From: Quisquiliibacterium transsilvanicum
GTDB taxonomy: Bacteria; Pseudomonadota; Gammaproteobacteria; Burkholderiales; Burkholderiaceae_E
Assembly (NCBI RefSeq): GCF_014202215.1
Contig: NZ_JACHGB010000002.1
Span: forward strand, 372,001 to 436,000
DNA: 64,000 nucleotides
Reading direction: 5' to 3'
Shown here: positions 5,961 to 24,207 of the stretch, piece by piece
Layout: the number at the start of each line of letters is the position of its first letter
Numbering within the stretch: position 1 is the stretch's first letter
The notes under the pieces: model-generated
Database searches by the model: none
Told to the model about the DNA's origin: nothing
The model's input: only the letters and a program-made list of their open reading frames with translations
Position numbers and translations under genes: made by a program

Positions 5961-6983
5961 ATGACCCACCCAGGAGCACCCGACACCCACGCAGCCCGCA
6001 AGCTGGTGAGCCTCGTCGTGCCCATGTACAACGAGGCGCCGGCGCTGGACGCGCTGTTCGCGCGCCTGATGCATGTGTTGGAGCCGCTGCAGGCGCGCTA
6101 CCGATTCGAAGTGGTGTGCGTCAACGACGGCAGCCGCGACGCCACGCTGGAGGCGCTGATCCGCAAGTCGCGCGAGATTCCGGTGCTGCGGGTGGTGGAC
6201 CTGTCGCGCAACTTCGGCAAGGAGTCCGCGCTGTCGGCCGGCATCGGCGAGGCTCGCGGCGACGCAGTGATCCCCCTGGATGCCGACCTGCAGGACCCTC
6301 CCGAGCTGATCGTGCAGATGCTGGAGAAGTGGGAGGCCGGTGCCGAGGTGGTGCTGGCGCACCGCGTGAACCGCGACACCGACGGCTTCCTCAAGCGGCT
6401 CACCGCGAAGTATTTCTACCGGGTGCACAACGCGCTCTCGGACCCCACCATCCCCGAGAACGTCGGCGATTTCCGCCTGATGGACCGCCGCGTGGTGGAC
6501 GTACTGCTGAGCCTGCCCGAGAGCCGCCGCTTCATGAAAGGGCTGTTCGCGTGGGTGGGCTTCCGCACCGAATCGGTGGGCTACGAGCGCAGGGAGCGCT
6601 CCGCTGGCAGCACCAAGTTCTCCGGCTGGAAGCTCTGGAACCTGGCGCTGGAGGGCATCACCAGCTTCAGCACCGTGCCGCTGCGGGCATGGACCTACTT
6701 CGGCGGCGCAGTCGCCCTGCTGGCGCTGGTCTACGGCCTGCTGCTGGTCACCCGCACGCTGCTGTTCGGCGCCGACCTGCCGGGCTATGCGTCGCTGATG
6801 ACCGCGGTGCTGTTCCTGGGCGGGGTGCAGCTGATCGGGATCGGGGTGCTGGGGGAGTACGTGGGCCGGATTTATGTGGAGTCGAAGCGGCGGCCGGCGT
6901 TTGTGGTTCGGGCGAGGTATGAGGGGGGGGCGGAGATGCCGGTGGGTGCGGCCTTGCCGCAGGGAGCCCCGGAGCAGGCCTGA
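5961..6983 (+). CDS. Family 2 glycosyltransferase, polyprenyl-phosphate type (GtrB/DPM1-like)
   Basis: A 340-residue inner-membrane glycosyltransferase that probably transfers a sugar from a nucleotide donor to polyprenyl phosphate. The GT-A fold starts with SLVVPMYNEAPALDALF near residue 16, followed by VVCVNDGSRDATLEAL and the metal-binding segment IPLDADLQDPPELI near residue 110. Two C-terminal transmembrane helices follow (about 240-265 and 273-295), as in GtrB and DPM1-like enzymes. It stands alone on the plus strand, divergent from the methyltransferase/GtrA pair. The C-terminal 30 residues are low in conservation-like features. The sugar cannot be read from sequence. Confidence 0.88.
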   Translation: MTHPGAPDTHAARKLVSLVVPMYNEAPALDALFARLMHVLEPLQARYRFEVVCVNDGSRDATLEALIRKSREIPVLRVVDLSRNFGKESALSAGIGEARGDAVIPLDADLQDPPELIVQMLEKWEAGAEVVLAHRVNRDTDGFLKRLTAKYFYRVHNALSDPTIPENVGDFRLMDRRVVDVLLSLPESRRFMKGLFAWVGFRTESVGYERRERSAGSTKFSGWKLWNLALEGITSFSTVPLRAWTYFGGAVALLALVYGLLLVTRTLLFGADLPGYASLMTAVLFLGGVQLIGIGVLGEYVGRIYVESKRRPAFVVRARYEGGAEMPVGAALPQGAPEQA

Positions 6984-6998: not shown

Positions 6999-8027
6999 TC
7001 AGAGCGAATCGCGGTGGGGCGTACCGTCGGGCTCCGGGCTGCGTCTTCGCAGCGACAGGTAGTTGAAGCGCTTCTGCTCCAGGCGCCCACGCGCCACGCT
7101 GTCGAGGATCAGGCCGCAGCCGGCGGACATCGCGGCAAGGCTCATCAGGCCGGTGGCCAGGACGGCCGTCGGCAGACGCGGCACCAGCCCCGTCTCCTGC
7201 CAGGTGAGGAACAGCGGCCAGGCCAGCACCAGCGAAAGCAGCGCGAGGGAGACGCCGATGCCGCCGAAGAACAGCATCGGCCTGACCTCCTTGAACAGCA
7301 GCATCATCGCGGAGAGAATGCGCGTGCCGTCCCGCATGGTGTTCAGCTTGCTGTGCGAGCCTTCCTCGCGGGGCGCGTAGTGCGTGTCCATCTCTGCCAC
7401 GGGCATGCGGAGCTGACTCGCGTATACCGACATCTCGGTCTCGATCTCGAAGCCGCTGGAGATCGCTGGAAAACTCTTCGCGAAGCGATGCGAGAACACC
7501 CGGTAACCGGAGAAGATGTCGGTGAACCCGGCGCCGAACAGCCGTCGATAGAGCCCGTTGAAGGCCCGGTTGCCGCTGGCGTGTCCCTTGCGGTGGGCGT
7601 TGCCATGGACGCCCCGCCGGATGCCGATGACCATGTCGAGCCGTTCGTCGAGCAGGCGCTGGATCATCGCCGGCGCAGCCTCGGCTTCGTAGGTGTTGTC
7701 GCCGTCCGCCATCACGTACACGTCGGCGTCGATGTCGCCGAACATGCGGCGCACCACGCTGCCCTTGCCCGGCAGCGGTTCGAAGCGAACCACGGCGCCC
7801 GCGCGCCGTGCAATGTCGGCGGTGCCGTCGGTGGAGCGGTTGTCGTAGACGTAGATCGTCGCCGAGGGAAGCGTTCTACGGAACCGCTCGACGGTCGCGG
7901 CGATCGAGACTGCTTCGTTGTGGCAGGGGATCAGGACGGCTAGGTCGATACGATTGCGGTCGCCAGACCCCCTCGGAACCGGGGTCGTGCCTCCGACGAC
8001 ACGCAAGGGGGAGAGATCGGTTTCCAC
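6999..8027 (-). CDS. Family 2 glycosyltransferase with C-terminal membrane helices
   Basis: A 342-residue enzyme with an N-terminal GT-A domain: LAVLIPCHNEAVSIAATV near residue 29, YVYDNRSTDGTADIA near 58 and the DXD-like VMADGDNTYEAEA near 106. Two hydrophobic helices follow at about 250-275 and 285-310. It starts with GTG at 8027, with AAGGAA seven bases upstream. It is the last gene of the four-gene minus-strand operon beginning at 10414, and lies 19 bases after the methyltransferase. The acceptor is probably a membrane lipid, from the operon context. The protein also resembles the glycosyltransferase at 5961. Confidence 0.86.
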   Translation of the reverse strand: METDLSPLRVVGGTTPVPRGSGDRNRIDLAVLIPCHNEAVSIAATVERFRRTLPSATIYVYDNRSTDGTADIARRAGAVVRFEPLPGKGSVVRRMFGDIDADVYVMADGDNTYEAEAAPAMIQRLLDERLDMVIGIRRGVHGNAHRKGHASGNRAFNGLYRRLFGAGFTDIFSGYRVFSHRFAKSFPAISSGFEIETEMSVYASQLRMPVAEMDTHYAPREEGSHSKLNTMRDGTRILSAMMLLFKEVRPMLFFGGIGVSLALLSLVLAWPLFLTWQETGLVPRLPTAVLATGLMSLAAMSAGCGLILDSVARGRLEQKRFNYLSLRRRSPEPDGTPHRDSL

Positions 8028-8046
8028 TGGGCTTTCCTTCGCAGAC

Positions 8047-8763
8047 TCAAACGACCGCTACTGCGTAGACGTTCTTTCCGATCCATCGGTCGGTGAGCGA
8101 ATCCAGCATCCGGCTCAGCGGAAACACGAGGCGGTCATAGCGGGCGATCGAGTCGGCGGTGAGCGTGCCCGACCCGCTGATCGCGCGGTACAGCAGGCTT
8201 GCCGCGAAGCCCAGGGTGTCCACGTAGCGGCTGAATTCCACCCGGAAGCCGGCGCCTGACAGCGCGGCCTCGAGCGAGCGGCGCGTGTAGCGCCGATGGT
8301 GGCCCACCAGCCGGTCCATCTCCGAGTAAAGCACCTGGAATGCCGGCACGTAGACCAGGACGCGCGCGCCGGATTGCAGTCGTGTGCGCAGCCCTGTCAA
8401 GGCGGCGCGGTCGTCTTCGATGTGCTCGAGCACGTTCAGCGAGTAGGCGTAGTGCAGCGATTGCGGCGATATCTCGTCGATGGCCATGACCGTATGCAGG
8501 CCACCAGCCTGCGCCCGTGCGGCCAGGCTAGCGTCGACCTCCAGGCAGCTCACATCGAGCCCACGCCGCTTCAGTGCCAGCGCGAAGTCACCTAGGCCTG
8601 CGCCGAAGTCGAGCACCGGCCCGTTGCCAGGAGGCGCGTGCCGTGCGACGAGTTGCTCCAGGAACCGGTTGTAGCGCACGGCGGAGCGCATCGCGTCCAG
8701 ATTGTCGCGCCCGGAATAGGGGGAGTCCGCCACTGCGCCGGCGCTTCCGCTATCCATGCTCAT
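8047..8763 (-). CDS. Class I SAM-dependent methyltransferase (lipid operon)
   Basis: A 238-residue methyltransferase. Motif I is VLDFGAGLGDFALAL near residue 48; later come AYSLNVLEHIEDDRAAL and VYVPAFQVLYSEMDRLVGHH. The block VLEHIEDD to HHRRYT is shared with the methyltransferase at 5031-5786, so the two are paralogues. The ATG at 8763 overlaps the stop of the upstream PAP2-type gene (ATGA), which decides this start over the ATG two codons later. The partners suggest a lipid or lipid-linked sugar substrate, but that is inference. Confidence 0.85.
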   Translation of the reverse strand: MSMDSGSAGAVADSPYSGRDNLDAMRSAVRYNRFLEQLVARHAPPGNGPVLDFGAGLGDFALALKRRGLDVSCLEVDASLAARAQAGGLHTVMAIDEISPQSLHYAYSLNVLEHIEDDRAALTGLRTRLQSGARVLVYVPAFQVLYSEMDRLVGHHRRYTRRSLEAALSGAGFRVEFSRYVDTLGFAASLLYRAISGSGTLTADSIARYDRLVFPLSRMLDSLTDRWIGKNVYAVAVV

Positions 8764-9833
8764 GTCAGTTCTCCGTTCCGATCGGAGGTCTGCTTCATCG
8801 CCTGCGCGTGAGCACCGCCGACTGCGAAAGGCGGCCTTGTTCCCGGCTCCGTGAGGGGCTCTACCCGCCTCAACAATGCACGCGTCAGCAGGACGCACAA
8901 GCCCGCGAGCAACATTCCGCTCGCGCCATCCAGGATGTAATGCCATCCGAGCAGGACCGTTGACGTCCAGACTGCCAGGACCCAGGGAACCGTGAGAAAC
9001 AGCGTTCGCCGATTGGCAACCGCAAGCCAGAACGCGGTGGTCGCAACCATGGCTACGTGCAGGCTAGGCATCGCCGAGACTCCGCCGAGAAGAATCCCGC
9101 CACGCTGCATCGCCTCCGACGGCGGGAGCGCCATCACCTCGGCAACCACCTTCATTGCCGTCTGTGTGGCCGATCCGTCCAGGTAGGCGAAGAGATCGGG
9201 GCGATAGAAGGCCGGGCCCATCACAGGGTTCAGCATGCCGAGGAGGCGGCCGACATAGAAGAGCAGGATCATCGACACGCAGTAGCGCAGAATGATTCGC
9301 GGCCCGCGTCCTACGACAACCAGCGCGAAGGCGGCGAAGACCTCGATGGCCCATGCGCTGTGATAGAGGCGATCCCAGGCGACGGCGTCAATGCGCAGGT
9401 CCTTGAGGTGCGCGAGCAATGTCCCCTCGATGTGCCACAGAATCGGGTCGCGCCACTGGGTCGTGTGCTGCAGCATGTCCAGGCTGAGCAGCGTTATGTT
9501 CGACGTTCCGTGTATCGCTGCGGCGGTCAGCATCAGCATCGGAATCGGCAGGACTCCACAGGTGAAGAACCGCACGCGGCGCATCGATTCCATGGTCGGC
9601 ATACCGTCGGCGTGGCGAACGTGGCCTGCCAGCTTCCGCGATGCCATGCCGATGGTGATCAGCGCGCCGTCCCACAGGATTGCAAGCGTGAGAAGGATCG
9701 CCAGGAATCCCGTCAGGAAAACGGTTGCGTCCGGAAACCAGAACGTGAATGGCGATCCGGTTGCCGCGGCGAGTACCGCGGTCGTCAGGATCGCGACCGC
9801 GTAGATCCCTGCGATGATGCCAAGTTCCCTCAT
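8760..9833 (-). CDS. Aur1-like PAP2 membrane transferase/phosphatase
   Basis: A 357-residue polytopic membrane protein with about seven hydrophobic segments. The C-terminal half carries the phosphatase/phosphotransferase signature: SAMPSLHVAM around residues 253-262 (His259) and GWHYILDGASG around 296-306 (His298, Asp302). This is the pattern of inositol-phosphorylceramide synthase-type PAP2 proteins, which move a phospho-alcohol head group between lipids or cleave a lipid phosphate. The N-terminal half has extra helices of unknown role. The ATG at 9833 overlaps the upstream PAP2 stop and its own stop overlaps the methyltransferase start, so translation of three genes is coupled. Confidence 0.8.
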   Translation of the reverse strand: MRELGIIAGIYAVAILTTAVLAAATGSPFTFWFPDATVFLTGFLAILLTLAILWDGALITIGMASRKLAGHVRHADGMPTMESMRRVRFFTCGVLPIPMLMLTAAAIHGTSNITLLSLDMLQHTTQWRDPILWHIEGTLLAHLKDLRIDAVAWDRLYHSAWAIEVFAAFALVVVGRGPRIILRYCVSMILLFYVGRLLGMLNPVMGPAFYRPDLFAYLDGSATQTAMKVVAEVMALPPSEAMQRGGILLGGVSAMPSLHVAMVATTAFWLAVANRRTLFLTVPWVLAVWTSTVLLGWHYILDGASGMLLAGLCVLLTRALLRRVEPLTEPGTRPPFAVGGAHAQAMKQTSDRNGELT

Positions 9834-10414
9834 CCCTGCTCTCCCATGATGATGGCGCGAGGCCGGATGGCGCTGCGAACGAGCGCCGTGACCAGTGCGG
9901 CGACGAACGCGCCGCCCGCCACGTCGGCCGGGAAATGCGCGCCCACGGACACTCTCGAGATGCAGACGAGTAGCGCGAAGGCGATGAGCGTGATCCGGAG
10001 GGGCCGCGCGGCACCTGGAGAAAGCGCGCATGCGGTCAGGACCGCAAATGCGGCGTGCCCCGACGGAAAGGCGTGCACGGCGTCCTGCGCACCGATCACG
10101 GCAACTCGTGTTCCGAGCGCCAGCAGCGGGCGGGGGAAATCCAGAGCACTCTTGAGGATCGGCACGATCAGGGCGGAGACGAGCACATATCCGATCGCGA
10201 AAACGATGACATTGCGCATCGGCAGTCGGCCGGGATGTCGCCATGCGAACCATACGGCCAGCGCGAGGTAGAAAGGGTACAGGCGCGGGTGTCCCAGCAC
10301 GCTGAACGGGGCCATCGACGCATCGACGAACGTGCCACGCACGCCATTTATCAGCAGGAACAACTGTTGGTTGAGACCGAACCAGTCGTACGCGGGATTT
10401 TCAGGGGTCAGCAT
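9830..10414 (-). CDS. PAP2-family membrane phosphatase
   Basis: A 194-residue membrane phosphatase with all three catalytic motifs of the type 2 phosphatidic acid phosphatase family. They are K88 to R95-P96 (KSALDFPRP), PSGH at 117-120, and SR at 153-154 with H160 and D164. Five to six helices surround them, which places the active site at the periplasmic face. Family members dephosphorylate phosphatidic acid, phosphatidylglycerol phosphate or undecaprenyl pyrophosphate; the substrate cannot be chosen here. It is the first gene of the operon, followed by an Aur1-like transferase, a methyltransferase and a glycosyltransferase. Confidence 0.87.
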   Translation of the reverse strand: MLTPENPAYDWFGLNQQLFLLINGVRGTFVDASMAPFSVLGHPRLYPFYLALAVWFAWRHPGRLPMRNVIVFAIGYVLVSALIVPILKSALDFPRPLLALGTRVAVIGAQDAVHAFPSGHAAFAVLTACALSPGAARPLRITLIAFALLVCISRVSVGAHFPADVAGGAFVAALVTALVRSAIRPRAIIMGEQG

Positions 10415-10533: not shown

Positions 10534-10736
10534 TAGCGTGGTGGTACCTGCCGTTTCCACCAATTTAGCTGAACCCCAGCGACCGTGGTGCGTAGGAGTG
10601 CACGCAGCCGCCGCCCCCGATGGGTGACGCTCGATTCCTCGCGAACCGCCCCGCGGGGGGGTGTCGCGCATTGCGGGCCGGGTGTTCTAATCGAGCGCCG
10701 ACAGTGCCAGAGGTGGCCGGACGCGGCAACTGACAC

Positions 10737-10740
10737 GGAG
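10737..10740 (+). promoter_or_regulatory. Ribosome binding site deciding the TTG start of the hybrid kinase
   Basis: GGAG ends six bases before the TTG at 10747. The longer open frame starting at 10585 would add about 54 residues with no family-like content, so this site fixes the start. Confidence 0.55.
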
Positions 10741-10746
10741 AGCGCA

Positions 10747-12513
10747 TTGACGCGCAAGGGCGACGACAACGGCCATTCACCGACCATTGACGCGGAGCTG
10801 TACCGGGTCCTGATCGCGCAGGCCGCGCAAGTGCCGATGTGGGTCCTCCTGCTGCCGGTGCTGTCCCTCTTCGTCGGCGATCACGTATCGCGCGAGCACC
10901 GCATCGGGTGGGGCGTGCTGATTGCGCTCAGCCTGCTGATCCGTTGGGTGCTGGCGCGCATCTTCCGTTCGGCCGACCTGGCGGACGCCGCACTGCGTTC
11001 ACGGGCGCGTGTCCTGAGTGGAATACTGGTATTCACAGGCCTGGCTGCGGGACTGGCGCCCGTCATCTGGTTCCCGGAGCTGCTGCAGATCGAGCGCGCG
11101 GTGATCACAGTGGCCTTCTTCGGCTGGTTCGCCGCCGCAGTCGTGGTGTCACTGGTGCATCCCCTGTCGGCCTACCTGTTTGGCATGGCATTGCTCGGAC
11201 CGCTCTCTGTGGCCTGGGCCGCCTACGGCGGCTACCCTGGTCTGCTGGTGGCAATCATCACGCTGATGCTTCTGTTCTCGGTGCGACAGACGGTCGGTGC
11301 AGCGCATCGTGCAATCCGCGACGCCATCCGAGCGCGCCTGCGCGAGGCGGAATTGAGTCAGCGACTCGAGGAACGCGGACGGGAGTTGGAGTCGGCGATG
11401 GGGGTGAAGTCGGCCTTCCTCGCTGCGGCGAGCCACGATCTTCGCCAGCCGGTCACATCGATGAGCCTCCTGCTGTCAGCCATGCAGGCGGCACGAGACG
11501 AGCAGGCGATGCGCGCCGTCGCGGAGAAGCTGGACGCGCCGCTCCAGGCGCTCGAGGAAATACTGTCCTCGCTGCTCGAGATGTCGCGTCTCGAGTCTGG
11601 CGTCGTAAGGCTGGACAGCCGGGCCTGCGTTCCGGCGGAGATCGTGATCGCACTCGAGGCAGAGTACCTGCCGCGGGCACAGGCAAAGGGGCTTCACCTG
11701 CGCGTAGTGGGGGGCGACTTCGCCGCCTTCACGGACCCGGAGCTGCTCAAGAGGGTGCTCCGAAACCTCATCGAGAACGCGCTCAAGTTCACCGACGCGG
11801 GGGGTGTCAGTGTCGAGGCTTCTCGTAACGGCAGTGACATGCAGTTCGTGGTTTCGGACACCGGAAGGGGGATTCCACCGGAGGCCATTGAGCACATCTT
11901 CGACGACTACTTCCAGGCGGAAAACCCCCATCGGAATCGGGGACAAGGTCTGGGACTTGGCCTGGCAATCGTCCGGCGTCTTCTGGACTTGCTGGGCGGC
12001 ACGGTGTCGGTTGTATCCGAACTGGGCCGAGGTACGCGTTTCTCGGTCACTGTACCGGGGGCCCAGGCCGACGCGGAATTGTTTCCTGCGCATGCGACCC
12101 GAGTGCGGTGGGCCACATCGCTCGACGTGAGCAGCATGCTCGTGGTTGAGGATGATCGCCTGATCATCGATGCGATGCGCACAGTCGCAGAATCGCTGGG
12201 CATCGACGCCCGCTTTGCGTCCGATGCAGAAGGGGCGCTCGCGCTGACGGCGCTCGGACGGTTCATGCCCGAAGTTGCCTTGGTGGATTTCGGCCTTCCG
12301 GGGAGCATGGACGGAATCGCGACGATCCTGGCGATGCGAGAGCGCTTGCGGGACTGCCGCTTCCTGCTCGTCACGGGAGACACCCGGGCAGAGGTCATCG
12401 GGCGCGCGGCGCAGCTTGGTATCTCCACTTTACACAAGCCGATCTCTGTGGAGCGGATCGCCGAGGCCCTTCGTGCGATGCCGAAGCGGGGTTCTCCAGA
12501 AAGGGGTGCTTGA
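10747..12513 (+). CDS. Hybrid sensor histidine kinase with C-terminal receiver
   Basis: A 588-residue inner-membrane sensor. Six hydrophobic segments fill residues 25-185 with almost no periplasmic domain, so the signal is probably sensed in or at the membrane. A short coiled coil leads to the HisKA box ASHDLRQPVTS (His230). The ATPase domain has LRNLIENALKF (N box), DTGRGIPPE (G1) and GQGLGLGLAIVRRLL (G2). A receiver domain at about 460-580 carries the phosphoacceptor Asp514 (VALVDFGLPG) and HKPIS. A kinase ending in a receiver needs a further partner; the convergent NarL-type regulator at 12598 is the nearest candidate. Confidence 0.9.
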   Translation: MTRKGDDNGHSPTIDAELYRVLIAQAAQVPMWVLLLPVLSLFVGDHVSREHRIGWGVLIALSLLIRWVLARIFRSADLADAALRSRARVLSGILVFTGLAAGLAPVIWFPELLQIERAVITVAFFGWFAAAVVVSLVHPLSAYLFGMALLGPLSVAWAAYGGYPGLLVAIITLMLLFSVRQTVGAAHRAIRDAIRARLREAELSQRLEERGRELESAMGVKSAFLAAASHDLRQPVTSMSLLLSAMQAARDEQAMRAVAEKLDAPLQALEEILSSLLEMSRLESGVVRLDSRACVPAEIVIALEAEYLPRAQAKGLHLRVVGGDFAAFTDPELLKRVLRNLIENALKFTDAGGVSVEASRNGSDMQFVVSDTGRGIPPEAIEHIFDDYFQAENPHRNRGQGLGLGLAIVRRLLDLLGGTVSVVSELGRGTRFSVTVPGAQADAELFPAHATRVRWATSLDVSSMLVVEDDRLIIDAMRTVAESLGIDARFASDAEGALALTALGRFMPEVALVDFGLPGSMDGIATILAMRERLRDCRFLLVTGDTRAEVIGRAAQLGISTLHKPISVERIAEALRAMPKRGSPERGA

Positions 12514-12597: not shown

Positions 12598-13329
12598 TCA
12601 GGGGCTCGTCGACTGCTCGCTGGTGCGGCGCGAGGCCCCTGTGACGGCCACCGCCTGGGCGCGATTGCTTACGCCGAGGGTACGGAAGATCACCGCGACG
12701 TGGGACTTCACAGTGTTGGACGAGATCGCGAGACGCCGGCTGATCTGCTTCGTGGTCAGGCCAGCGGCCAACAGCTCGACGATCTCTCGCTGTCGCTCGG
12801 TCAGGTTGGCAAGGGCGCTGGTGCTGGGCTCGGCAGCGGTGAGCCCGATCGGCGCCATGAGCGCGTTGACCTTCGCCACGGCGGAGTCATGCACCGCTGC
12901 ATGAACAGCCGATGCATCTTGAACGCCAGTGTCGATGAGGCAAAGGATGTCTGGCGGCACGTAGATGCCCCCATCCAGAACCAGTTGCAGTGCATGTGAC
13001 AGGACGCTGCGCGGCGAAGTCTTGGGAATGAACCCGCTCGCCCCCGAACGCAATGCTCGTGCGATGGTCGGTGGGTCGTGGATTGCCGAGAAGATCACGA
13101 TGCGGCCGGTGGGGCACCATGCCCGGACCACTCGGAGTGCTTCAAGCCCGCTGATGCCTGGCAGGGTGAGGTCCAGCAGCACCAGGTCGGGGTCTGTGCT
13201 CGCGACGACATCTTCGAGAGCTTCGACACGATCCACCGCAGCCACCCTTTTCCCGGGCGCCAAGGCCTCGATGACGGTGGTAACCGCCTGAACGATCAGG
13301 GGGTGGTCGTCGATGATGAGGATGTCCAT
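12598..13329 (-). CDS. NarL/FixJ-family response regulator
   Basis: A 243-residue regulator with an N-terminal receiver (IIDDHPLIVQA, Asp53 in LVLLDLTLPG, and IPKTSPRSV supplying the conserved Lys). The C-terminal LuxR-type helix-turn-helix contains LTERQREIVELLAAGLTTKQI and NTVKSHVAVIFRTLG. The linker of about 40 residues is longer than usual. The ATG at 13329 begins exactly at the receiver fold (MDILIIDDHP); the open frame upstream is non-coding. It converges on the hybrid kinase, 84 bases apart, and is divergent from the Ig-like lipoprotein gene, whose promoter it could control. Confidence 0.92.
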   Translation of the reverse strand: MDILIIDDHPLIVQAVTTVIEALAPGKRVAAVDRVEALEDVVASTDPDLVLLDLTLPGISGLEALRVVRAWCPTGRIVIFSAIHDPPTIARALRSGASGFIPKTSPRSVLSHALQLVLDGGIYVPPDILCLIDTGVQDASAVHAAVHDSAVAKVNALMAPIGLTAAEPSTSALANLTERQREIVELLAAGLTTKQISRRLAISSNTVKSHVAVIFRTLGVSNRAQAVAVTGASRRTSEQSTSP

Positions 13330-13535
13330 CTGGGGCTCGGGGGTGAAAGTGGATATTGGTTCGACAGGAAATGCGGGCGATACGCCGGAGGTTGCCTGGA
13401 GGTTATCGCATTCGTAAGGAACGGCTTCACGGCCGGCGGCTTCCAGGCCGCTCTTGCGTGGCGATTGTGACGAATGCCGCGAAACACTCGATACGCCACC
13501 CGATCGGGTGGGTACGGCGCGCAGGATGCCGAACC

Positions 13536-13541
13536 TATAAT
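13536..13541 (+). promoter_or_regulatory. Consensus -10 hexamer before the Ig-like lipoprotein
   Basis: A perfect TATAAT stands 29 bases before the ATG at 13571, notable in DNA this GC-rich. The sequence 17 bases upstream does not resemble TTGACA, so an activator may be needed; the divergent response regulator is a possible one. Confidence 0.45.
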
Positions 13542-13570
13542 CGTTGCGGTCAAATCCCGAGGACTCTGCA

Positions 13571-15700
13571 ATGACGACGGCCGCTCGATTCAACGGTGCA
13601 CGACTCCGGGCGCTTTCCCCCCGGTGCGGCGTGGTGATTCTCACTACGCTGCTCGCGGCCTGCGGGGGTGGCGGGTCGTCCGATCCTGCCAAGGACACAG
13701 TGATCCTGCCCGGCGGCGGCATCAGCACGCCATCGACCCCCGCATCCACAACCGCGACGGTCACCGTCGGCGTGATCGATCCGGTCACCGGCGCGGCAAG
13801 GAACACGATCTCGTTCACGTCGCTGTCGCTCGTGCGGGCATTGGTGAAGGACGGCAACGGCAAGGCCTTGCCGAACACAGTGGTGCGATTCAGCGCGTCG
13901 GACGAAGCGGCCATCACGTTTTCGCCGGCCGCGACCGCGCTGACAGATGAGAATGGCGTTGCCAGCGTGAATCTCGGCCCGGCCAGACTGTCCACCGCGG
14001 GCGCCTACGCGATCAGCGGCAGCGTGCAGGTCGGCGAGAGCGCTTTCACCGGCAGCACGAGCGTCGCAGTCGGTGCCTCGCAGGTGGCGCTCGGCGATCT
14101 TGCGCCCGGAATCTCGCCTCTCTCGGCCTACGGAACCACGGTGTTCTCCGTATCGGTTTCCGGAGTGCCGACCTCTACGCTGGTGCAGGTCCGGTTCACC
14201 TCGGCCTGCGCGGCGCAGAACCCGCCGCGGGCGACGATCACGCCGATGGTCTCCACGGTGAATGGCATCGCGCGGGCCACCTACGTGGACAAGGGCTGCG
14301 GCTCGCAGGACCTGGTCACTGCCACGGTCGAAGGCACCAGCGTGGTTCGCGCGGCCACGCTCCCGGTGCTAAGCCCGTCGGTGGCCAACATCCAGTTCGC
14401 AAGCGCTTCGCCGATGGTGATCGCGCTGCGGGGGACCGGGGGCACGCAGGGGCCCGGCACGGGTGTGCGCTTCCCGGAAATCTCCACGGTGCGATTCCAG
14501 GTCGTCGACGAGGCCGGCGTTCCGGTCGCAACGCCGACCAACGTCACCCTCAGTCTGAGCAATGATACCGGCGGCATCCTGATCGACCAGTTGCCCGGGC
14601 CCGTGGTCAAGCAGACCGACGCGAACGGGTTCGTCGAGGTTCAGGTGCAGTCGGGCACTCTTCCGACGCCGGTCTGGGTGATCGCATCAATCACCACCGC
14701 GACGCGTACCGTCACCACCAACTCGGTGCAGCTCGCGGTGTCGACGGGGCAGCCGATACAGAGCCGGTTTTCGACGAGCTTCGAGGTGCTGAACTGCGAA
14801 GGCTGGAGCTACGACGGCAAATGCGGTTCTGTCGGGGTGATCGCGGCCGACGCCATGGGCAATCCGGTTCCTGACGGAACGGCAATCAGCTTCATTGCGG
14901 ACCACGGCATGGTGGAAGCCAACTGCCAGACCGGTGTCATAACGGGACGACCGCTGCCGGGGGGGGACTCGCCGGGGGAGGACTCGCCGGGGCGTTGTCG
15001 TGTTTCCGTCTTCAGCCAGGGCACGAGGCCCTCGGATGGCAGGGTAGGTGTGGTCGCCTACGCGGTTGGAGAAGAGCACTACGAAGACTGGAACAGCAAC
15101 AACCGCTACGACGTCGGCGAGGCTTTCTACGACATGGGCTACCTGTTCATCGACCGGAACCAGAGTGGTGCGTATGAGGCCGGCGAGCGGTTCGTCCCCT
15201 TCCTCACGGCCCAGAGCGGCGCCTGCGCGAGCAATTCCCTGCCTGCCGTGCGAACGGCCAGCGTACCCGGCACCTGCGACGGCGTATGGGGAAGAGCCCA
15301 CGTGCGCTCGGGTGGTGTGATCGTGTTCTCGGGGTCGGTGCCGTATTTCCGAACTTCTCCTGTATTCGGGTCACCTAACATCAGCAACATTCCGACGAGC
15401 TACTCCCTCGGGGCTGCATGCTCGGCCGTCGTCGGCTTCTGGCTGCAGGACCTGAATGGCAACCCGATGCCGGAAGGCACGGTCGTGTCCGCGGATACGG
15501 GCGGAGCCTTCAAGCTCAGTACCTCCAGCGAGCCGACAAGGGTGCCAAACACGAACGCTCGTGGTGGTACGTACCATGCGTTCGCGATCAGCGGGCGCGA
15601 TCCGGTCAGCGGCGAGTGCGTGGGCTCTGGGGCGGTGCGAATCCGGACGCAAACGCCCCGGGGCATCATCTCCGACATCTTCGTGAACGTCGGGGCCTGA
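13571..15700 (+). CDS. Large Ig-like-domain lipoprotein with EF-hand-like loops
   Basis: A 709-residue predicted outer-membrane or surface lipoprotein. A signal peptide ends in the lipobox LLAAC (Cys31), followed by a Gly/Ser-rich linker. The bulk is beta-rich and repetitive in the style of bacterial Ig-like (Big1/invasin) modules, with segments such as DENGVASVNLG and DANGFVEVQV spaced about 100 residues apart. Around residues 500-545 two acidic loops, DWNSNNRYDVGE and DRNQSGAYEAGE, resemble calcium-binding dockerin or EF-hand loops. GAGGA precedes the ATG. Its place between a response regulator and the Tad operon suggests adhesion or a surface role; the function is not known. Confidence 0.75.
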   Translation: MTTAARFNGARLRALSPRCGVVILTTLLAACGGGGSSDPAKDTVILPGGGISTPSTPASTTATVTVGVIDPVTGAARNTISFTSLSLVRALVKDGNGKALPNTVVRFSASDEAAITFSPAATALTDENGVASVNLGPARLSTAGAYAISGSVQVGESAFTGSTSVAVGASQVALGDLAPGISPLSAYGTTVFSVSVSGVPTSTLVQVRFTSACAAQNPPRATITPMVSTVNGIARATYVDKGCGSQDLVTATVEGTSVVRAATLPVLSPSVANIQFASASPMVIALRGTGGTQGPGTGVRFPEISTVRFQVVDEAGVPVATPTNVTLSLSNDTGGILIDQLPGPVVKQTDANGFVEVQVQSGTLPTPVWVIASITTATRTVTTNSVQLAVSTGQPIQSRFSTSFEVLNCEGWSYDGKCGSVGVIAADAMGNPVPDGTAISFIADHGMVEANCQTGVITGRPLPGGDSPGEDSPGRCRVSVFSQGTRPSDGRVGVVAYAVGEEHYEDWNSNNRYDVGEAFYDMGYLFIDRNQSGAYEAGERFVPFLTAQSGACASNSLPAVRTASVPGTCDGVWGRAHVRSGGVIVFSGSVPYFRTSPVFGSPNISNIPTSYSLGAACSAVVGFWLQDLNGNPMPEGTVVSADTGGAFKLSTSSEPTRVPNTNARGGTYHAFAISGRDPVSGECVGSGAVRIRTQTPRGIISDIFVNVGA

Positions 15701-15727: not shown

Positions 15728-17305
15728 ATGGCTCCCGATTCCGGCGCCAGGGCCCCGGCGCAAGCAGCTTCCGGGCAAGGTGTTTCCGCCCGCCTGCCCA
15801 TCCTCGGCGCAAGCAGGCGACTGCTCAGCATCTACGAGGACGCGCCCTACCGGAACGCCGGGGCCATCCTGGTGTTCGTCTGTGGCCTCGTGCTGCTCGC
15901 ACGCTTGTCGCCTTTGGCAATGCTGCCGTTCCTGGTCCTCGTCTGGGCCAACGCCGACCGCCTCGCGCTGCGGGTCGACAGCCTGCTTGGGGCGGCGCCG
16001 TGGCTGCTCGTCGCGATTCCGGCCGCGGCGATCCTCGCGCGGCTGGTCTTGCAGCCACCCGCTGCCTCGGATGATCTGTTGCGCCACATCGCTTCGGCGT
16101 TCTGGCCCCGGGGCTACCAGGACATGTACGTCCACACAGCACTACCTCCGCATCCGCTGTACCCGGGTTTCGACGGGTTGCTGGGGTACCTGGCCCAACG
16201 CATCGGCCTCCCGGCCACGATGTGGCTTGCGCAGGCGGCGGCATTCGCCTGTTATTCGTTCGCGGTGATCGGCGCGGGCCTGCGCGTGTTGTCCGGCCGG
16301 GAGGATCGCTGGTTCTGGGTGGCGGCGGGCTGGCTGCTACTGTGCTCGCTGCTGGCGCTGCGCCTGTCCTTGGCGCGACCCGAGGTATTCATGGCCGCCT
16401 GGGCAATTTCCGCGGTGATTCCGCGGAGCCGCGGTGGGATCGCGCTCTGGGTCGTCATAGGCGTCGCGCTAGGGTCCGCCTACTGGCTGGCGCCGATCTA
16501 TTACACGGCCGCGCTCTTGCTGCAGACCTCACTGCGCGCACGGCTGGCGATAGCGGCCGCGCTGGGCACCGCGTGGGCGCTCCTCTGGCTTTGGCTGACC
16601 GGGGGCGAACTGGTCGCTACGTTCGTCTGGCCCCTGGAGGCGGTTGGCAGGCGTATCCCGGAGCTGTCGGTCGGGGAGAACGTGAGTATCTTCGCGATGG
16701 TCTCCGCGCCCGAGTTCGTGCTCCTGGCGGCGGGCGCCGCCTGGGCGATCGGCAAGGGTGCCGCCGAGCCGAGGTTCGTGCTGCTCGCGGGCTTCTTCCT
16801 GCTGTCCAATCAGATCCGCTACGCCAACGTAGTTGCGGCGATGTTCATGCTGTGTGCGCTGGGGCTCATTGCGGCTGCAAAGGGCGAGGAACTGCTCCGC
16901 AGTAGGACGCAGTCCGGTGCGAAGCTGCGATCGGTGGTCGCCGCCGTGCTGCTGCTGTGCGCGCTGAGCATTCCTCCGCAGGTGCCCAAGTGGGCCGATC
17001 AGGTGCGGTTCCAACTGCCGCCCGGCTCAGTCGTGCTGGCGGGGAACATGCCGCCGATGTACTCGATGCTGTTCCATAACCCCGGACGGATACGGATCTC
17101 TCCAGGCTTCGAGCTGGGGGCCGCACGGCCGGAGGTGCAGCGGGCCATCCTCGACCTGGGCTCAGGTCGCCTGGACTGCGTGGCGGTGCTGGCGCTCGGG
17201 TTCACTCATCTGGTCGAGAACTCGTTCGCAGGCGTCCCGGCATCCTGCATGCGGCTGGAGGCCACGCAGAATACGTGGCGGCTCTGGAGGCTGGCTGCAC
17301 CCTGA
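15728..17305 (+). CDS. Polytopic membrane protein of unknown function (possible GT-C type)
   Basis: A 525-residue protein with roughly ten to twelve hydrophobic helices and a C-terminal soluble stretch of about 100 residues (from VPKWADQVRFQL on). I do not recognise the family. The layout, with a long first loop after helix 3 containing SDDLLRHIASAFWPRGYQDM and an acidic pair there, resembles the GT-C glycosyltransferases, which use a polyprenyl-linked sugar donor. That is a weak structural analogy only. It follows the Ig-like lipoprotein by 27 bases in the same direction and is probably co-transcribed. The ribosome site before the ATG is poor, so a later start is possible. Confidence 0.6.
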   Translation: MAPDSGARAPAQAASGQGVSARLPILGASRRLLSIYEDAPYRNAGAILVFVCGLVLLARLSPLAMLPFLVLVWANADRLALRVDSLLGAAPWLLVAIPAAAILARLVLQPPAASDDLLRHIASAFWPRGYQDMYVHTALPPHPLYPGFDGLLGYLAQRIGLPATMWLAQAAAFACYSFAVIGAGLRVLSGREDRWFWVAAGWLLLCSLLALRLSLARPEVFMAAWAISAVIPRSRGGIALWVVIGVALGSAYWLAPIYYTAALLLQTSLRARLAIAAALGTAWALLWLWLTGGELVATFVWPLEAVGRRIPELSVGENVSIFAMVSAPEFVLLAAGAAWAIGKGAAEPRFVLLAGFFLLSNQIRYANVVAAMFMLCALGLIAAAKGEELLRSRTQSGAKLRSVVAAVLLLCALSIPPQVPKWADQVRFQLPPGSVVLAGNMPPMYSMLFHNPGRIRISPGFELGAARPEVQRAILDLGSGRLDCVAVLALGFTHLVENSFAGVPASCMRLEATQNTWRLWRLAAP

Positions 17306-17425: not shown

Positions 17426-18679
17426 TCAGCGTTCCGTCCGCGCTTCCGAGACCGATGCGACCTGGGAAGGGCCTGCCTCGTTCTCGGCAAGCGGCCCATC
17501 CTGGGGGGCATCGTTACCGAGGACCAGTTGCACGTCCACGCGGGACGGGATCGAGTTGTCGAGGTGAATCTCGGGTTTGCTGGCCAGGCGGCGGCTGAGG
17601 GCCAATGCCGAATCGAGATGGCCGTCACGGAACAGGATCTTCGAGCGCGCAAGGTCGAAGCGCGGCGCATTCGAGATCCGCACGACCTGCATGCTTCCAG
17701 AACGCAGTGCCTCTCCGTAGCGACGGGCGATGCCGGGGGTGCCATTCCCGTTGGCAACCGCTACACGCGCAGGCGGCTGGGCTCTGGCCGGAGCGCGCGG
17801 CGGTTCGAGGCTGCTCGCTTTCAGCGCAGCGACCGCCGCTGGTGGCGCAGCCAGGGGGGCCGAGGGCGGGAGCTTGGCCGTCGATGCGGCTGCCGACGCT
17901 ACCGTAGAGGGGGCAGCAAGAGCTGGGCCTGCGTCCTGGGTCGATGAATCCTTGGAGATCGCCGTGCTGTTCCCGGCGGCGGGCACGGTGATGACGGTCA
18001 GGGAGGGTCTGGCGGACTGCATCGTCCCCACGTCGACAGGGGAGGGCGCATATGCAAGGTTCATGACGGAGGCAGACACGACCTCGCGCACCGCCGACGG
18101 CGTGACAGCGGCCGGCGCAGGGGCTGTGATTCCCGCGCTGGCGACCGCCGGGCGCCCGGCAAGGACTGCGGCTTTCGCCGGATCTTCGGCAACCTTCGCG
18201 GCGAGCGCAGACCAGTTGGCGCGCACACGCTCGTTGCGCGGGTCGAGATCGAAAGCGCGGCGCAGGGCCTCTGCGGACGCGCGGTGCTCGCCGGCCAGCA
18301 TGCGCACGTAGCCGAGGTTGCCGTGCAGATGCGCGGACTCGGGCGCCCGCTGGATTGCGGCCTCGAGCTCGGTAGCCGCCGCCTGCAGGTCACCCAGTTG
18401 GGCCAGCGCGGCGGCACGGCCGTTGCGTGCCTCGACGTGAGCCGGGTCCGCGGCGATCGCCTTGGTGAAGGCCACCAGCGCAAGGGCGTGGCGGCGCTGT
18501 CCAAGGTAGTACTTGCCGAGCGCGTATTGCCCGCCGGCATCGCCGACGCTGTGGCTTACGCGCTCCAGCGCGACGGTGGTCGCCCGCGGGGCCTTCGCGC
18601 CGGGCGAGAACGCCGCGCAGCCGGACAACGCGGCCACCACCGCCACCGCCATTGCCGTCCTGGTCATCGAGCTTTCCAT
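17426..18679 (-). CDS. tadD: TadD-like TPR lipoprotein with LytR_C-like C-terminus
   Basis: A 417-residue lipoprotein, the last gene of the Tad operon. The signal peptide ends at ALSGC (Cys21). Three to four TPR units occupy about 45-170 (YALGKYYLGQRRHALAL, HLHGNLGYVRMLAGEH and similar). A Pro/Ala/Ser-rich linker spans about 175-325. The C-terminal 80 residues (GIARRYGEALRSG, RFDLARSKILFRDG, VDVQLVLGNDA) match the LytR_C fold. TadD pilotins assist assembly of the RcpA secretin. GGAGG lies five bases before the ATG at 18679, which fixes the start; the longer open frame upstream lacks such a site. Confidence 0.82.
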   Translation of the reverse strand: MESSMTRTAMAVAVVAALSGCAAFSPGAKAPRATTVALERVSHSVGDAGGQYALGKYYLGQRRHALALVAFTKAIAADPAHVEARNGRAAALAQLGDLQAAATELEAAIQRAPESAHLHGNLGYVRMLAGEHRASAEALRRAFDLDPRNERVRANWSALAAKVAEDPAKAAVLAGRPAVASAGITAPAPAAVTPSAVREVVSASVMNLAYAPSPVDVGTMQSARPSLTVITVPAAGNSTAISKDSSTQDAGPALAAPSTVASAAASTAKLPPSAPLAAPPAAVAALKASSLEPPRAPARAQPPARVAVANGNGTPGIARRYGEALRSGSMQVVRISNAPRFDLARSKILFRDGHLDSALALSRRLASKPEIHLDNSIPSRVDVQLVLGNDAPQDGPLAENEAGPSQVASVSEARTER

Positions 18680-18692
18680 TGGACCTCCATTG

Positions 18693-19646
18693 TCATTGGC
18701 CGAAGGTGGACAGGAGCTTGCCGATCCGCAGTACTGCGGGCCCGGCAACCACGATCAAGATCGAGGGGAAAATGCACAACACCAACGGGAAGATCAGCTT
18801 CACCGCGACCTTTGCGGCGGCCTCCTCGGCACGCTGCTGCCGCTTGGACCGCAGCATGTCGGAGTGGATGCGGAGCGCGTCGCCGATGCTGGTACCGAAT
18901 TTCTCGGACTGGATCAACATTGCCACCAGCGTGTCGATGTCTTCCACTCCAGTACGCAGGGCAAGGTTTCGCAGTGCCCGTTCCTTGCCGCCACCGGCAC
19001 GCATCTCGAGCACGACGAGCTGGAGCTCGTCGGCCAGCACCTCGCTCTTGAGCTGCATCTCGCTTGCCACGCGCGCGAGCGCAGCGTCCAGTCCGAGGCC
19101 TGCCTCGACGCAGATCGTGAGCAGGTCCAGCGCATCCGGGAACGCTTCGAAGAGTTCGCGCTGGCGCAGCTTTACGATCCGGTTCAGGACCAGGTTGGGC
19201 AGGTAGTAGCCCATTCCCATGAGTAGCGTGAGGAGGATGACGAGTCGGCTCGCGCCCATGTCCTTGCCGGCCATCGTGATGGCGAACCAGCCCACCAAGG
19301 GCAGCGCTAGGCCGAGGAAGGTCTTCACACCGAAGAACACCACGGGCGCCGAGGCACTCCGAAGGCCGGCATGCATCAGCCTGCGGCGTATCTCCGACTG
19401 CTCCCAGCCTTCGTCGGGGATCGAGAGCCTGGCCAGAGGTGAAGCGAGCTTGACGACAGACTCCACCCAGCCGGACTGGGACGGCTCCTTGACCAGCGTC
19501 GGCGTGGCTCCGGTCACGACTCGTTCGAGGCGCCTGCTGGTTTCGCTTCGACGTAGAAGGAGGAAAAGACCCACTGCGAGTCCGCTTGCGGCCAGGAAGA
19601 CCATGGCCAGGATCGCAATCTGTGGCAGTGGCATGTCGGGTGGCAT
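18693..19646 (-). CDS. tadC: Tad pilus inner-membrane platform protein TadC
   Basis: A 317-residue protein of the type II secretion F family. An N-terminal helix (IAILAMVFLAASGLAVGLFL) is followed by a cytoplasmic domain with LTICVEAGLGLDAALARVA, and two C-terminal helices end the protein. TadC and TadB together form the platform on which the TadA ATPase extrudes Flp pilin. It lies 13 bases before tadD and 48 bases after tadB. Confidence 0.93.
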   Translation of the reverse strand: MPPDMPLPQIAILAMVFLAASGLAVGLFLLLRRSETSRRLERVVTGATPTLVKEPSQSGWVESVVKLASPLARLSIPDEGWEQSEIRRRLMHAGLRSASAPVVFFGVKTFLGLALPLVGWFAITMAGKDMGASRLVILLTLLMGMGYYLPNLVLNRIVKLRQRELFEAFPDALDLLTICVEAGLGLDAALARVASEMQLKSEVLADELQLVVLEMRAGGGKERALRNLALRTGVEDIDTLVAMLIQSEKFGTSIGDALRIHSDMLRSKRQQRAEEAAAKVAVKLIFPLVLCIFPSILIVVAGPAVLRIGKLLSTFGQ

Positions 19647-19694
19647 TGTGGGCTCGCTTGTATCGGCGTTTGCCAGGTCGCAGGCTGGCGGCGC

Positions 19695-20672
19695 CTAGAC
19701 GTGGATCCGGATGATCTTGCGCATCCAGAGAACGCCCAAGACCATGAAGAACAGGCCGCCGTAGATCATCTTCACGCCGGCGGGTTCAGTCCAGAGGGTC
19801 GACATGAACTTCGAGTCGATCGCGAACAGCAGGCCTGCCGTGAAGAACGGCAGAAGGGTCAGCACCAGGGCCGAGAACCTTCCCTCAGCGGAGAGCGTCC
19901 GCACCTTGCCGAGCAGTTTCAGCCGGTCACGGATGATGTGGCTGATGTTGTCCAGCACCTCCGCGAGGTTGCCGCCGGTTTCCCGCTGTATCAGGACAGC
20001 GATGACGAAGAAGCCGAGATCGGTGCTCGGGACGCGGGTAGCCAGGTTCTGCAGGGCGTCCTGCACGGAGATTCCGTAATTGACCTCGTCGAAGGTCTGC
20101 CGGAACTCCTCGCCCAGGGGCTCGGGCAACTCGCTGCCGGCCATCTGCAGCGCGCTTGGAAAGGCATGCCCGGCACGCAGCGCACGCCCGATCAGGTCGA
20201 GCGCATCCGGCAGCACCTGCTCGAAGCGTCGCAGCCGCTGGGCGCGGCGGAAGATCAGGTATTCCAGCGGGATCAGCCCCAGCAGGATTGCGCCGAATAC
20301 CGATACCGGCAGCGGGAACCGCAGCACGAGTCCACCGAGGAGGCCGGTCAGGAACAGGCCACCGGAGGTCCCCAGGAAGCTCGCTACCGTCCAGTCGACA
20401 CCGCTCTGGGTGATCAGCCGGTCAATCGAACCGATCCTGGGAAGATGGAGCAGCAGGCGCTCCAGCCCCGGGCTGTTGGACAACATGCGCTGCTTGAGTA
20501 GCGTGGACTGAGCGGAGTCCACGTGTCCCCCGGCCGACATCATGCGCAGCCGCTTGTCGATACGTCTGGCCTCGGGGCCCTTGCTCGAATTCCACCAGAT
20601 GTAGAGGGCCTCGATGGCCAGGAACACCGCGAGAAACAGCAGCACCGCTGCGGCGACGGCTAGGTTGCTCAT
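19695..20672 (-). CDS. tadB: Tad pilus inner-membrane platform protein TadB
   Basis: A 325-residue T2SF-family protein. The family segment [18 protein letters not shown] lies near residue 155, followed by [19 protein letters not shown]. Hydrophobic helices lie at about 5-22, 100-140 (two), 265-285 and 295-315. It is the partner of TadC in the pilus platform. The start is 12 bases from the tadA stop, which indicates tight co-expression. Confidence 0.93.
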
Positions 20673-20684
20673 CTCGTGGCCTCC

Positions 20685-22046
20685 TCAGGAGAATCGCCGC
20701 GCCGGATCGAAGTACTCCTCCGGCAGCGTGATTCCGAAGGCCCGCAGACGCTCTATGAAGCGCGGCCGCACCCCGGTTGCGGCAAAGTATCCATCGACGG
20801 CTCCGTTCGTACCGATCCCCAACTGCTTGAAGGTGAAGATCTCCTGGAGGGTGATGGTTTCGCCTTCCATGCCGGAGATCTCCTGCACGCTGGTGATCCT
20901 CCGGGTTCCGTCGGTCAGGCGCGCCACCTGCACGATCACCGAGATCGCCGAGGCGATCTGCTGGCGGGTGGACTTTACGGTCATGTTCATTCCGGCCATG
21001 CTGATCATGTTCTCCATCCTCGCGATTGCGTCACGCGGCGAGTTGGAGTGGATGGTCGCGAGCGAGCCTTCGTGGCCGGTATTCATCGCCTGCAGCATGT
21101 CAAAGGCCTCTGCGCCGCGGACCTCGCCAAGGATGATCCGGTCCGGGCGCATCCGCAGCGCGTTGCGCACCAGCGCGCGTTGCGTGACTTCGCCCTTGCC
21201 TTCGATGTTCGGCGGGCGCGTTTCAAGACGAACCACGTGTGGTTGCTGCATCTGCAGCTCCGCGGCGTCTTCGATCGTGACGACGCGCTCGTTGTGGGGG
21301 ATACTCGCCGAGAGGATGTTCAGCAGCGTGGTCTTCCCGCTGCCGGTGCCGCCCGACACCAGCACGTTCAGCTTCGCGGCCGCCAGCGATTCGAGCGTCT
21401 TTGCCATCGGCTCGGTTAGGGTCTTGAAGGCCAACAGGTCCGACATCTTGAGCGGCACCACCGCAAACCGACGGATCGACATGATCGGTCCATCGATCGC
21501 CAGCGGCGGGATGATCGCATTGACCCGTGAGCCATCGGGCAGCCGCGCATCGACCATCGGGCTGGATTCGTCGATCCGCCTTCCCACGCGCGACACGATC
21601 TTGTCGATGATCTTGAGCAGGTGCTGCTCGTCATTGAATGTGACGTCTGTCAGCTCGAGGCGGCCGCGCCGCTCCACGTAAACCTGCCTGTGCGTGTTCA
21701 CCAGGATGTCGGAGATCGTCGGATCGGCAAGCAACGGCTCGAGCGGGCCGAGGCCCAGCATCTCGTGCCGGATGTCCCGGACGAGGTTGCGGCGCTCGGC
21801 GTCGTTCAGCGCAACGGATTCCTCGGCGAGGATCTGCTCGATCAGCAGCTTCAGCTCTTCCCCGACCCGCTCGGGGTCCAGGCGCTGGAGGCGCCCCAGG
21901 TCGACGCGGTCGAGAAGGGTCTGGTGGATGCGCTGTTTCAGCTCGAGGTAGGCGCGACGCGACGTGCCATGCGCCGGGCCTTCGATGACCTGGAACTTGC
22001 GCTCCTCCTGCTGCTCGTTCGTTCCCAGACGTTCGCGTAGTGACAT
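20685..22046 (-). CDS. tadA: Tad pilus assembly ATPase TadA/CpaF
   Basis: A 453-residue secretion ATPase that powers Flp pilus extension at the cytoplasmic side of the platform. It carries Walker [14 protein letters not shown] near residue 233, the Asp box [12 protein letters not shown], the Walker B region [16 protein letters not shown] and the His box [11 protein letters not shown]. The N-terminal domain is the usual CpaF helical bundle. Length and motif order are complete. It follows tadZ by 36 bases. Confidence 0.97.
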
Positions 22047-22082
22047 CCCGTGCTCCGTATCGCGTTACCCATCAGGGCATGT

Positions 22083-23246: not shown

Positions 23247-23273
23247 GCTGGCGGCCGCGGGTCTTGGTTGGGA

Positions 23274-23705
23274 TCAGTCGCAGAGAGGGTTGTCGGTACT
23301 GCTCAGGCTTTCGGAAGGCAGAGACGTCGCCAGCGACGGCAGGGTGAAGTTCAGCGGAATGAAGGGGACGATCAGCGGCACGTCGAAGTTCACGATCCTC
23401 ACGGTGACGGGCTCGCAACTAAGAGAGGTGCAGCCCGCGGCCGGGTAGCTGATCACGATGTTGCTGTCGGAGAGCGCGGGTAGCATGTCGCGCATCCGAC
23501 GCCTGATCGCGGGGTCGTTCTTGTCGCAGACCACGGCGACCCGCGCGCCGAGACGCGTGGTTTCCACCGCCATGTTCCAGGTCAGCATCAGACGCGAGAA
23601 CTCCATGGCCCCGATCACAAGGGTCAGGAATGCGATGGCCGTTAGCGCGAATTCCACCGCGGCGGCGCCACGCTGGCGTGCGGGATTGCAGCGGAGTGTC
23701 CTCAT
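23274..23705 (-). CDS. TadE/TadF-type pseudopilin-like protein
   Basis: A 143-residue protein with the TadE-like head RQRGAAAVEFALTAIAFLTL and one N-terminal transmembrane helix, then a periplasmic domain with two Cys (AAGCTSLSCEP). TadE-like pseudopilins are processed by the prepilin peptidase and assist pilus assembly. The ATG at 23705 directly abuts the stop of the upstream TadE-like gene (TAG at 23706-23708). Whether it is TadE or TadF cannot be settled by reading. Confidence 0.87.
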   Translation of the reverse strand: MRTLRCNPARQRGAAAVEFALTAIAFLTLVIGAMEFSRLMLTWNMAVETTRLGARVAVVCDKNDPAIRRRMRDMLPALSDSNIVISYPAAGCTSLSCEPVTVRIVNFDVPLIVPFIPLNFTLPSLATSLPSESLSSTDNPLCD

Positions 23706-24206
23706 CTAGAGCACCTGCCGCATCGTGGTGCCGATGGTGTCGAAAGTGATGCTCGCCCATCCGCTCGCGCCGGGGAAGGCGGGGGTGAACACGTAACCCT
23801 CGATCGCCACGCGCACCAGGTTGATCGATCCCGTTCCGGTGGGCACGACGCCAAAGCTCAGCCCGGGGCATCCCGAAGAGTTCACGCGGTCGCAGATGCG
23901 GATCATGCCGGCATTCAGGCCGGGCACGAGGATGTCTGCGTCAGAGCAGGCGGTGTCCCGTCCGCACAGCATGCGATTGATTGCGATTCCGGTCGGATAC
24001 TCGGCTGGTACGCTCGGGTCGAAACCGGAAAGGAATCGCGCTCCGTCCCGCGTGAGCTTGGCCAGAGTGTTGTAGGTGTACATCGCGCGGCCAAACTCGA
24101 GGGCCATCAGCGAAATGAGCACGAGCGGAATCGCGATCAGCGCGAGTTCGACGGCTATGGCGCCGCGCTGGCGCCCTCCTGACAGGGTGCGAGAGAACAT
24201 GCTCAT
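23706..24206 (-). CDS. TadE/TadF-type pseudopilin-like protein
   Basis: A 166-residue paralogue of the next gene. The head is GGRQRGAIAVELALIAIPLVL with a single helix to about residue 40. Four Cys in the periplasmic part (LCGRDTACSD, ICDRVNSSGCPG) suggest disulfides. It sits one base after tadG and abuts the following TadE-like gene, so the three minor pilin-like genes form a block between the secretin genes and tadZ. Confidence 0.87.
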   Translation of the reverse strand: MSMFSRTLSGGRQRGAIAVELALIAIPLVLISLMALEFGRAMYTYNTLAKLTRDGARFLSGFDPSVPAEYPTGIAINRMLCGRDTACSDADILVPGLNAGMIRICDRVNSSGCPGLSFGVVPTGTGSINLVRVAIEGYVFTPAFPGASGWASITFDTIGTTMRQVL

Positions 24207-24207
24207 T

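Follow-up and report, generated by a model that had tools for sequence, protein, structure and literature searches.

Few bacterial adhesion filaments are as widespread as Tad/Flp pili, and to our knowledge the genes that place sugar and phosphocholine on Flp pilins have not been established. We analysed a 64,000-nucleotide stretch of the Quisquiliibacterium transsilvanicum genome (contig NZ_JACHGB010000002.1, positions 372,001 to 436,000; hereafter the window), in which four closely spaced genes for membrane-associated and sugar-modifying enzymes share a genomic island with a Tad/Flp pilus locus. Two kinds of described system offer a comparison. Flp1 of Aggregatibacter actinomycetemcomitans has been described as glycosylated and phosphocholine-bearing (PMC6182317), and RcpC has been implicated in Flp glycosylation (PMC12307814). 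The other comes from the enzyme side and consists of the yeast inositol-phosphorylceramide (IPC) synthase AUR1 and BT1522 of Bacteroides, a phosphoinositol dihydroceramide synthase that makes inositol phosphoceramide (PMC9246714, PMC8791184). Our analysis suggests, with a probability of roughly one half, that the four genes are part of an accessory cassette that decorates the Tad/Flp pilus or the envelope with a methylated sugar and a phospho-group.

All four open reading frames are intact on the minus strand, running from 10414 down to 6999 as read from the window sequence, and they probably form one operon:

9830..10414, minus strand: PAP2a, a canonical PAP2 lipid phosphatase (194 residues, ATG start; PF01569, E 1.4e-16)
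8760..9833, minus strand: Aur1L, an Aur1-like PAP2 membrane protein (357 residues, ATG start; PF14378, PAP2_3, E 4.2e-16)
8047..8763, minus strand: MT, a class I S-adenosylmethionine-dependent methyltransferase (238 residues, ATG start; PF13489, Methyltransf_23, E 1.9e-13)
6999..8027, minus strand: GT, a GT2 glycosyltransferase of the polyprenyl-phosphate type, AglJ-like (342 residues, GTG start; PF00535, Glycos_transf_2, E 8.6e-15)

The overlaps between PAP2a and Aur1L (9833-9830) and between Aur1L and MT (8763-8760) are both ATGA, and 19 bases (8046-8028) separate MT from the GTG of GT. This arrangement had been described in the original prediction from the DNA letters, and it is borne out by the sequence and the Pfam matches, as are the methyltransferase (PF13489) and the polyprenyl-type glycosyltransferase (PF00535). 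We regard the reading frames as real genes because homologues with 50-66% identity exist in other genomes. A promoter and terminator scan found no site. The two PAP2-type enzymes are distinct, as had been predicted. PAP2a carries all three classical phosphatase motifs in order, KSALDFPRP (Kx6RP), PSGH and SRVSVGAHFPAD (SRx5Hx3D), and Aur1L contains the catalytic motifs PSLH and HYxxD without the first motif, Kx6RP.

The resemblance of Aur1L to Aur1 is visible both in its family profile and in its predicted structure. In an alignment of 19 Aur1L homologues, PSxH and GWHYxxDG are invariant, with one residue of PSLH varying. When the profile of these homologues was compared with the whole PDB sequence set, AUR1 chains were the sole matches (E 8.6e-6 and 1.7e-5), and the catalytic histidines and aspartate coincide in the alignment. 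The AlphaFold model of Aur1L has a predicted local distance difference test score (pLDDT) of 87. In VIA structure comparison, its best match is the Aur1-Kei1 structure 9ivc (Z 14.9 over 251 residues, model residues 5-333), followed by a second IPC synthase structure at Z 14.8. Phosphatases such as LpxE cover only the core of the model (residues 126-320, Z 12.1), and the Aur1 likeness thus extends past the PAP2 core. Foldseek gave a less clear picture, with nothing under E 1e-3 and Aur1 at the top at 1.9e-3. The IPC-synthase-type signature named in the original prediction is therefore supported as a resemblance by profile and by model, and Aur1L is a probable phosphotransferase on these grounds.

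Aur1L shares with yeast AUR1 and BT1522 the PAP2_3 fold, the PSLH and HYxxD motifs and a near full-length model alignment to Aur1, and a GtrA-like gene occurs near the window operon as well as in the operon around BT1522 (PMC8791184). Unlike those enzymes, Aur1L belongs to a Tad island rather than to a phosphatidylinositol/ceramide operon. It scores 17.5 bits against the curated bacterial phosphoinositol dihydroceramide synthase model NF052609, far under the cut-off of 480. Inositol-3-phosphate synthase (PF07994) is absent from the window genome in a search with positive controls. Classical IPC synthesis is therefore unlikely, and a classical IPC synthase was rejected as the leading idea for both reasons. 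A plasmid or phage origin of Aur1L was also rejected, as plasmids gave no match and viral contigs no confirmed relative.

The Tad/Flp pilus locus of the window is complete, with all core genes present at 17426..30789 on the minus strand (about 17.4-30.8 kb):

18748-17426, minus strand: TadD with a LytR_C domain
19646-18693, minus strand: TadC
20672-19695, minus strand: TadB
22046-20685, minus strand: TadA
23246-22083, minus strand: TadZ/CpaE
23705-23274 and 24206-23706, minus strand: two TadE/F-like genes
25455-24208, minus strand: TadG
27462-25807, minus strand: CpaC/RcpA
28315-27476, minus strand: CpaB/RcpC
about 29770-28337, minus strand: AAA ATPase, with weak Pfam matches alone (AAA_16)
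30249-29713, minus strand: CpaA prepilin peptidase
about 30492-30304 and 30789-30604, minus strand: two Flp pilins

A second Tad locus lies on contig C9 of the same genome.

Proximity of Aur1L to Tad genes is a recurrent feature. Below, L numbers denote fetched loci and G numbers genomes, G000 being the window genome and G200 Zeimonas arvi. Sixteen loci span at least 10 kb and encode a strong homologue of Aur1L. Tad genes lie no more than about 10 kb away in 14 of them; in L020 the distance to Tad is 20.6 kb, and in L029 all that is left of Tad is a LytR_C remnant of the TadD type. Weaker homologues are Tad-linked in 9 of 55 cases (Fisher p 3e-7 against the strong ones). Close homologues that share the Tad association are not independent observations in the statistical sense, and the p values given here are uncorrected for relatedness. 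On the Aur1L tree, the Tad label changes 11 times, compared with a mean of 21 in shuffles (none of 500 shuffles was as low), which indicates clade clustering plus several separate Tad associations. In a specificity control over 300 genomes of the order, only G000, G200 and G251 have a PAP2_3 gene within 100 kb of RcpC among the matches listed, as judged by eye. The linkage spans several Betaproteobacterial families and deltaproteobacterial genomes with differing flanks and GT-C families. Cultured carriers include Formivibrio citricus DSM 6150, Zeimonas arvi and Uliginosibacterium aquaticum. A search of the open-licence literature, with subscription journals outside its range, found no report of a Tad-linked PAP2 or Aur1 gene.

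We also examined the association in the reverse direction, using 31 Tad loci (29 fetched for the purpose, the window and G200). Homologues of Aur1L, C13, C15, GT or MT (C13 and C15 are membrane protein families described below) occur in 6 of the 13 Tad loci with the AAA ATPase and in none of the 18 without it (p 0.002). These counts point to an accessory cassette that goes with a single type of Tad locus and is not a general part of the system. The AAA-type ATPase between RcpC and the prepilin peptidase recurs in a subset of Tad loci (for example L018:5954-7333) and marks the cassette-capable type.

The operon and the pilus locus are separated by a sensor kinase, a response regulator, an Ig-like lipoprotein and C13. 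Together these make up one genomic island of ~24 kb. The genes between operon and pilus locus, and three further genes that adjoin the operon, are:

about 5810-5031, minus strand: second methyltransferase, MT2 (PF13489, E 3e-17)
5029-4667, minus strand: GtrA-like protein (PF04138, E 2.5e-18)
5961..6983, plus strand: GTb, a second GT2 glycosyltransferase of the ArnC/GtrB/PgfS type (PF00535, E 2.5e-30; PgfS 271 bits)
10585..12513, plus strand: hybrid sensor histidine kinase (HATPase_c, HisKA, Response_reg)
12598..13995, minus strand: LuxR-type response regulator (Response_reg, GerE), a long reading frame whose real start lies inside
13544..15700, plus strand: large secreted Ig-like (Big_1) protein with a lipobox-like N-terminus, LLAAC (PF02369, E 6e-13)
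15728..17305, plus strand: C13, a GT-C-like membrane protein of 525 residues (by fold comparison)

The extent of the island is seen from a relative, L029 (labelled Curvibacter sp. AG1), which is 97.1% identical over window positions 3171-6938 and 88.5% identical over 31291-33608. The 24.35 kb in between, which hold the operon, regulators, C13 and Tad, are replaced in L029 by 1.27 kb with the LytR_C remnant and another Aur1-like gene, this one of the Zeimonas type. This replacement indicates that the operon and the pilus locus were lost or exchanged together. GtrA, MT2 and GTb are kept in L029 and are thus separable from the operon and Tad. GTb adjoins the lost block while lying outside it, and is also found beside Aur1L in L028 and L029. 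In G007, a genome of the same genus, only fused fragments of clpB, GtrA, MT2 and Aur1L remain (L013, contig C6, 1-3729), and these fragments represent decay of the same island. The Ig-like protein is a possible pilus-associated adhesin or acceptor; it has no relative among the fetched loci and was hence rejected as a conserved part.

In the relatives, order, phylum and genome contigs searched, no second case of the exact four-gene order turned up, an outcome that the original prediction had named first among those that would speak against it; only the PAP2a-Aur1L pair and neighbouring GT and MT genes recur. PAP2a and Aur1L are adjacent in the same order in eight other loci (L016-L023), and in L016 and L018-L022 the pair occurs without GT and MT. 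GT and MT are adjacent in G200 and G015 in reversed order, with GT first and the ATG of MT overlapping the end of GT. The locus L017 has the PAP2 pair, MT, a GT remnant and C13, all scattered over 7 kb. Beside its Tad locus, L017 also has a tandem array of PAP2-family genes (L017:8812-13017), comprising a PAP2a homologue, Aur1L, a second Aur1L-like gene and a further PAP2_3 protein.

C13 matched no Pfam or NCBIfam family, nor did C15, and their profiles gave nothing meaningful against PDB sequences. The Foldseek and VIA lists for the low-confidence C13 model are led by GT-C enzymes (ArnT at Z 10.2, PMT, OST, DPY19 and PglB), and these fill almost all the top VIA rows, which suggests that C13 is probably a GT-C glycosyltransferase. 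In 300 genomes C13 has five matches, three of them strong (G000, G200 and G015), all within 12 kb of RcpC. Other large membrane families take its place in further Tad-Aur1L loci: C15 in L022, L024, L025, L028 and L031, and C32, which weakly resembles archaeal STT3, in L037 and L042. Both look like GT-C enzymes serving as alternatives to C13. The three families thus resemble lipid-linked GT-C enzymes such as ArnT, PMT, PglB/STT3 and DPY19 (C13 by fold), from which C13 and C15 differ by the lack of a Pfam or NCBIfam match. A further large membrane protein without an NCBIfam match (tested on the copy at L158:4987-6873) stands beside C13 in G015, and in G028 a similar-looking one (L012:4896-6788) is encoded close to a distant Aur1L.

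Judged by its motifs, PAP2a is likely a polyprenyl-diphosphate or lipid phosphate phosphatase; its match to the undecaprenyl-diphosphatase SepP model is weak (52 bits, under the cut-off of 250). MT contains a VLDFGAG motif and is 56-59% identical to the Tad-linked methyltransferases of L017, L030 and L158. GT has DGD at residue 108 and resembles AglJ-type polyprenyl-phosphate GT2 enzymes, matching the AglJ model TIGR04182 with 180 bits over 270 residues, which is below the equivalog cut-off of 325 and does not place it in AglJ. In G148 (C117:26788-33167), about 5 kb separate a GT homologue from a PAP2_3 gene, and no Tad RcpC match is listed for that genome.

Decoration of the pilus or its surroundings is the most likely role of the operon because it shares an island with a Tad locus and because Aur1L relatives stand beside Tad genes in many unrelated bacteria. 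In Aggregatibacter, too, sugar and phospho modification is presumed to act on the Tad/Flp pilus, and the reported state of Flp1 and the implication of RcpC make such a modification plausible. In the mechanism we propose, GT would load a sugar on polyprenyl phosphate at the inner membrane, as its family suggests, and MT may methylate the polyprenyl-linked sugar. C13 would transfer the sugar in the periplasm to an acceptor, for which the most likely candidates are a Flp pilin, a pseudopilin of the Tad system and some partner of the pilus at the cell surface. Aur1L, given its relationship to Aur1, may take a phospho-head-group off a phospholipid, or a sugar-phosphate off another lipid donor, and pass it to the acceptor or its glycan. 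PAP2a would dephosphorylate the released lipid carrier for recycling, as its phosphatase motifs suggest.

Several observations weigh against pilus decoration. Substrate and product are inferences, the enzymatic steps are read from protein families, and the acceptor from gene linkage alone. The phosphocholine of Flp1 has been tentatively tied to homologues of PptA, an unrelated family, and not to PAP2 proteins (PMC6182317); in that system the enzymes are not established, and there is no description of an Aur1-like gene. No single transcript covers the operon and the Tad genes, and the cassette is missing from 7 of the 13 Tad loci of the AAA type. Its content varies: the fetched 20 kb of L016 and L018-L021 contain the PAP2 pair and no GT, MT or GT-C gene, and G015 has C13, GT and MT without Aur1L. 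In G246 a strong Aur1L lies 321 kb away from that genome's own Tad locus. GT is not specific to Tad, its homologues being present in 17 of 250 genomes and mostly away from Tad loci, and the C13 model is of low confidence (pLDDT 63).

The main competing explanation is that the product of the operon is a modified glycolipid or phospho-head-group lipid of the membrane that is not joined to the pilus, with Tad proximity reflecting co-regulation or a requirement of the pilus machinery for a special lipid environment. Aur1 and sphingomyelin-synthase-type enzymes act on lipids, as does BT1522, and the two PAP2 enzymes and the nearby GtrA-like gene, which recalls the BT1522-1526 operon, would fit. However, no lipid-synthesis gene is a conserved partner in the 16 strong loci; GT-C-like proteins and Tad genes are. 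Inositol-3-phosphate synthase is also missing from the genome. We therefore consider this explanation rather unlikely, though it fares best among the alternatives. The original prediction had read the four genes as a complete, self-contained glycolipid route; its gene content stands, that part of its interpretation is unsupported, and the rest of the island, with the sensor kinase, response regulator, Ig-like lipoprotein, C13 and the Tad locus, had been overlooked.

We find it improbable that the genes form a lipid-carrier pathway for surface polysaccharide or O-antigen-type modification (GtrABC-like), with PAP2 proteins recycling the carrier and Tad present by chance in a clpB-proximal island. 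GTb, GtrA and the second methyltransferase adjoin the operon, C13 resembles the lipid A glycosyltransferase ArnT, and clpB also lies beside the island in L016, L017, L030 and G015. However, Aur1L is Tad-linked where clpB is not seen (L018, L019 and L022, all three beside nuo genes, and L025, L026, L028 and L031), and L029 shows GtrA, MT2 and GTb to be separable. Neutral hitch-hiking on a genomic island, to which the decay and cassette swapping in same-genus relatives (L013, L029) would point, is more improbable still, since the linkage recurs across Betaproteobacterial families, deltaproteobacterial genomes and separate tree branches with different flanks and GT-C families.

Pilus decoration thus remains our preferred reading. 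A more specific form of it is tentative and on balance doubtful: an Aur1-type PAP2 enzyme, with variable GT-C and polyprenyl glycosyltransferase partners, may have been recruited to modify Tad pilins or their glycans with a phospho-group or sugar-phosphate. It would represent a class of pilin-modifying phosphotransferases that is unrelated to PptA and recurs across proteobacterial groups. The Tad-tied gene set, namely an Aur1-like PAP2 protein, a PAP2 phosphatase, a GT-C-like protein, a polyprenyl glycosyltransferase and a methyltransferase, provides concrete candidates for Flp pilin modification and makes the question testable. If the proposal is true, bacterial Aur1-like proteins would gain a role outside sphingolipid synthesis.

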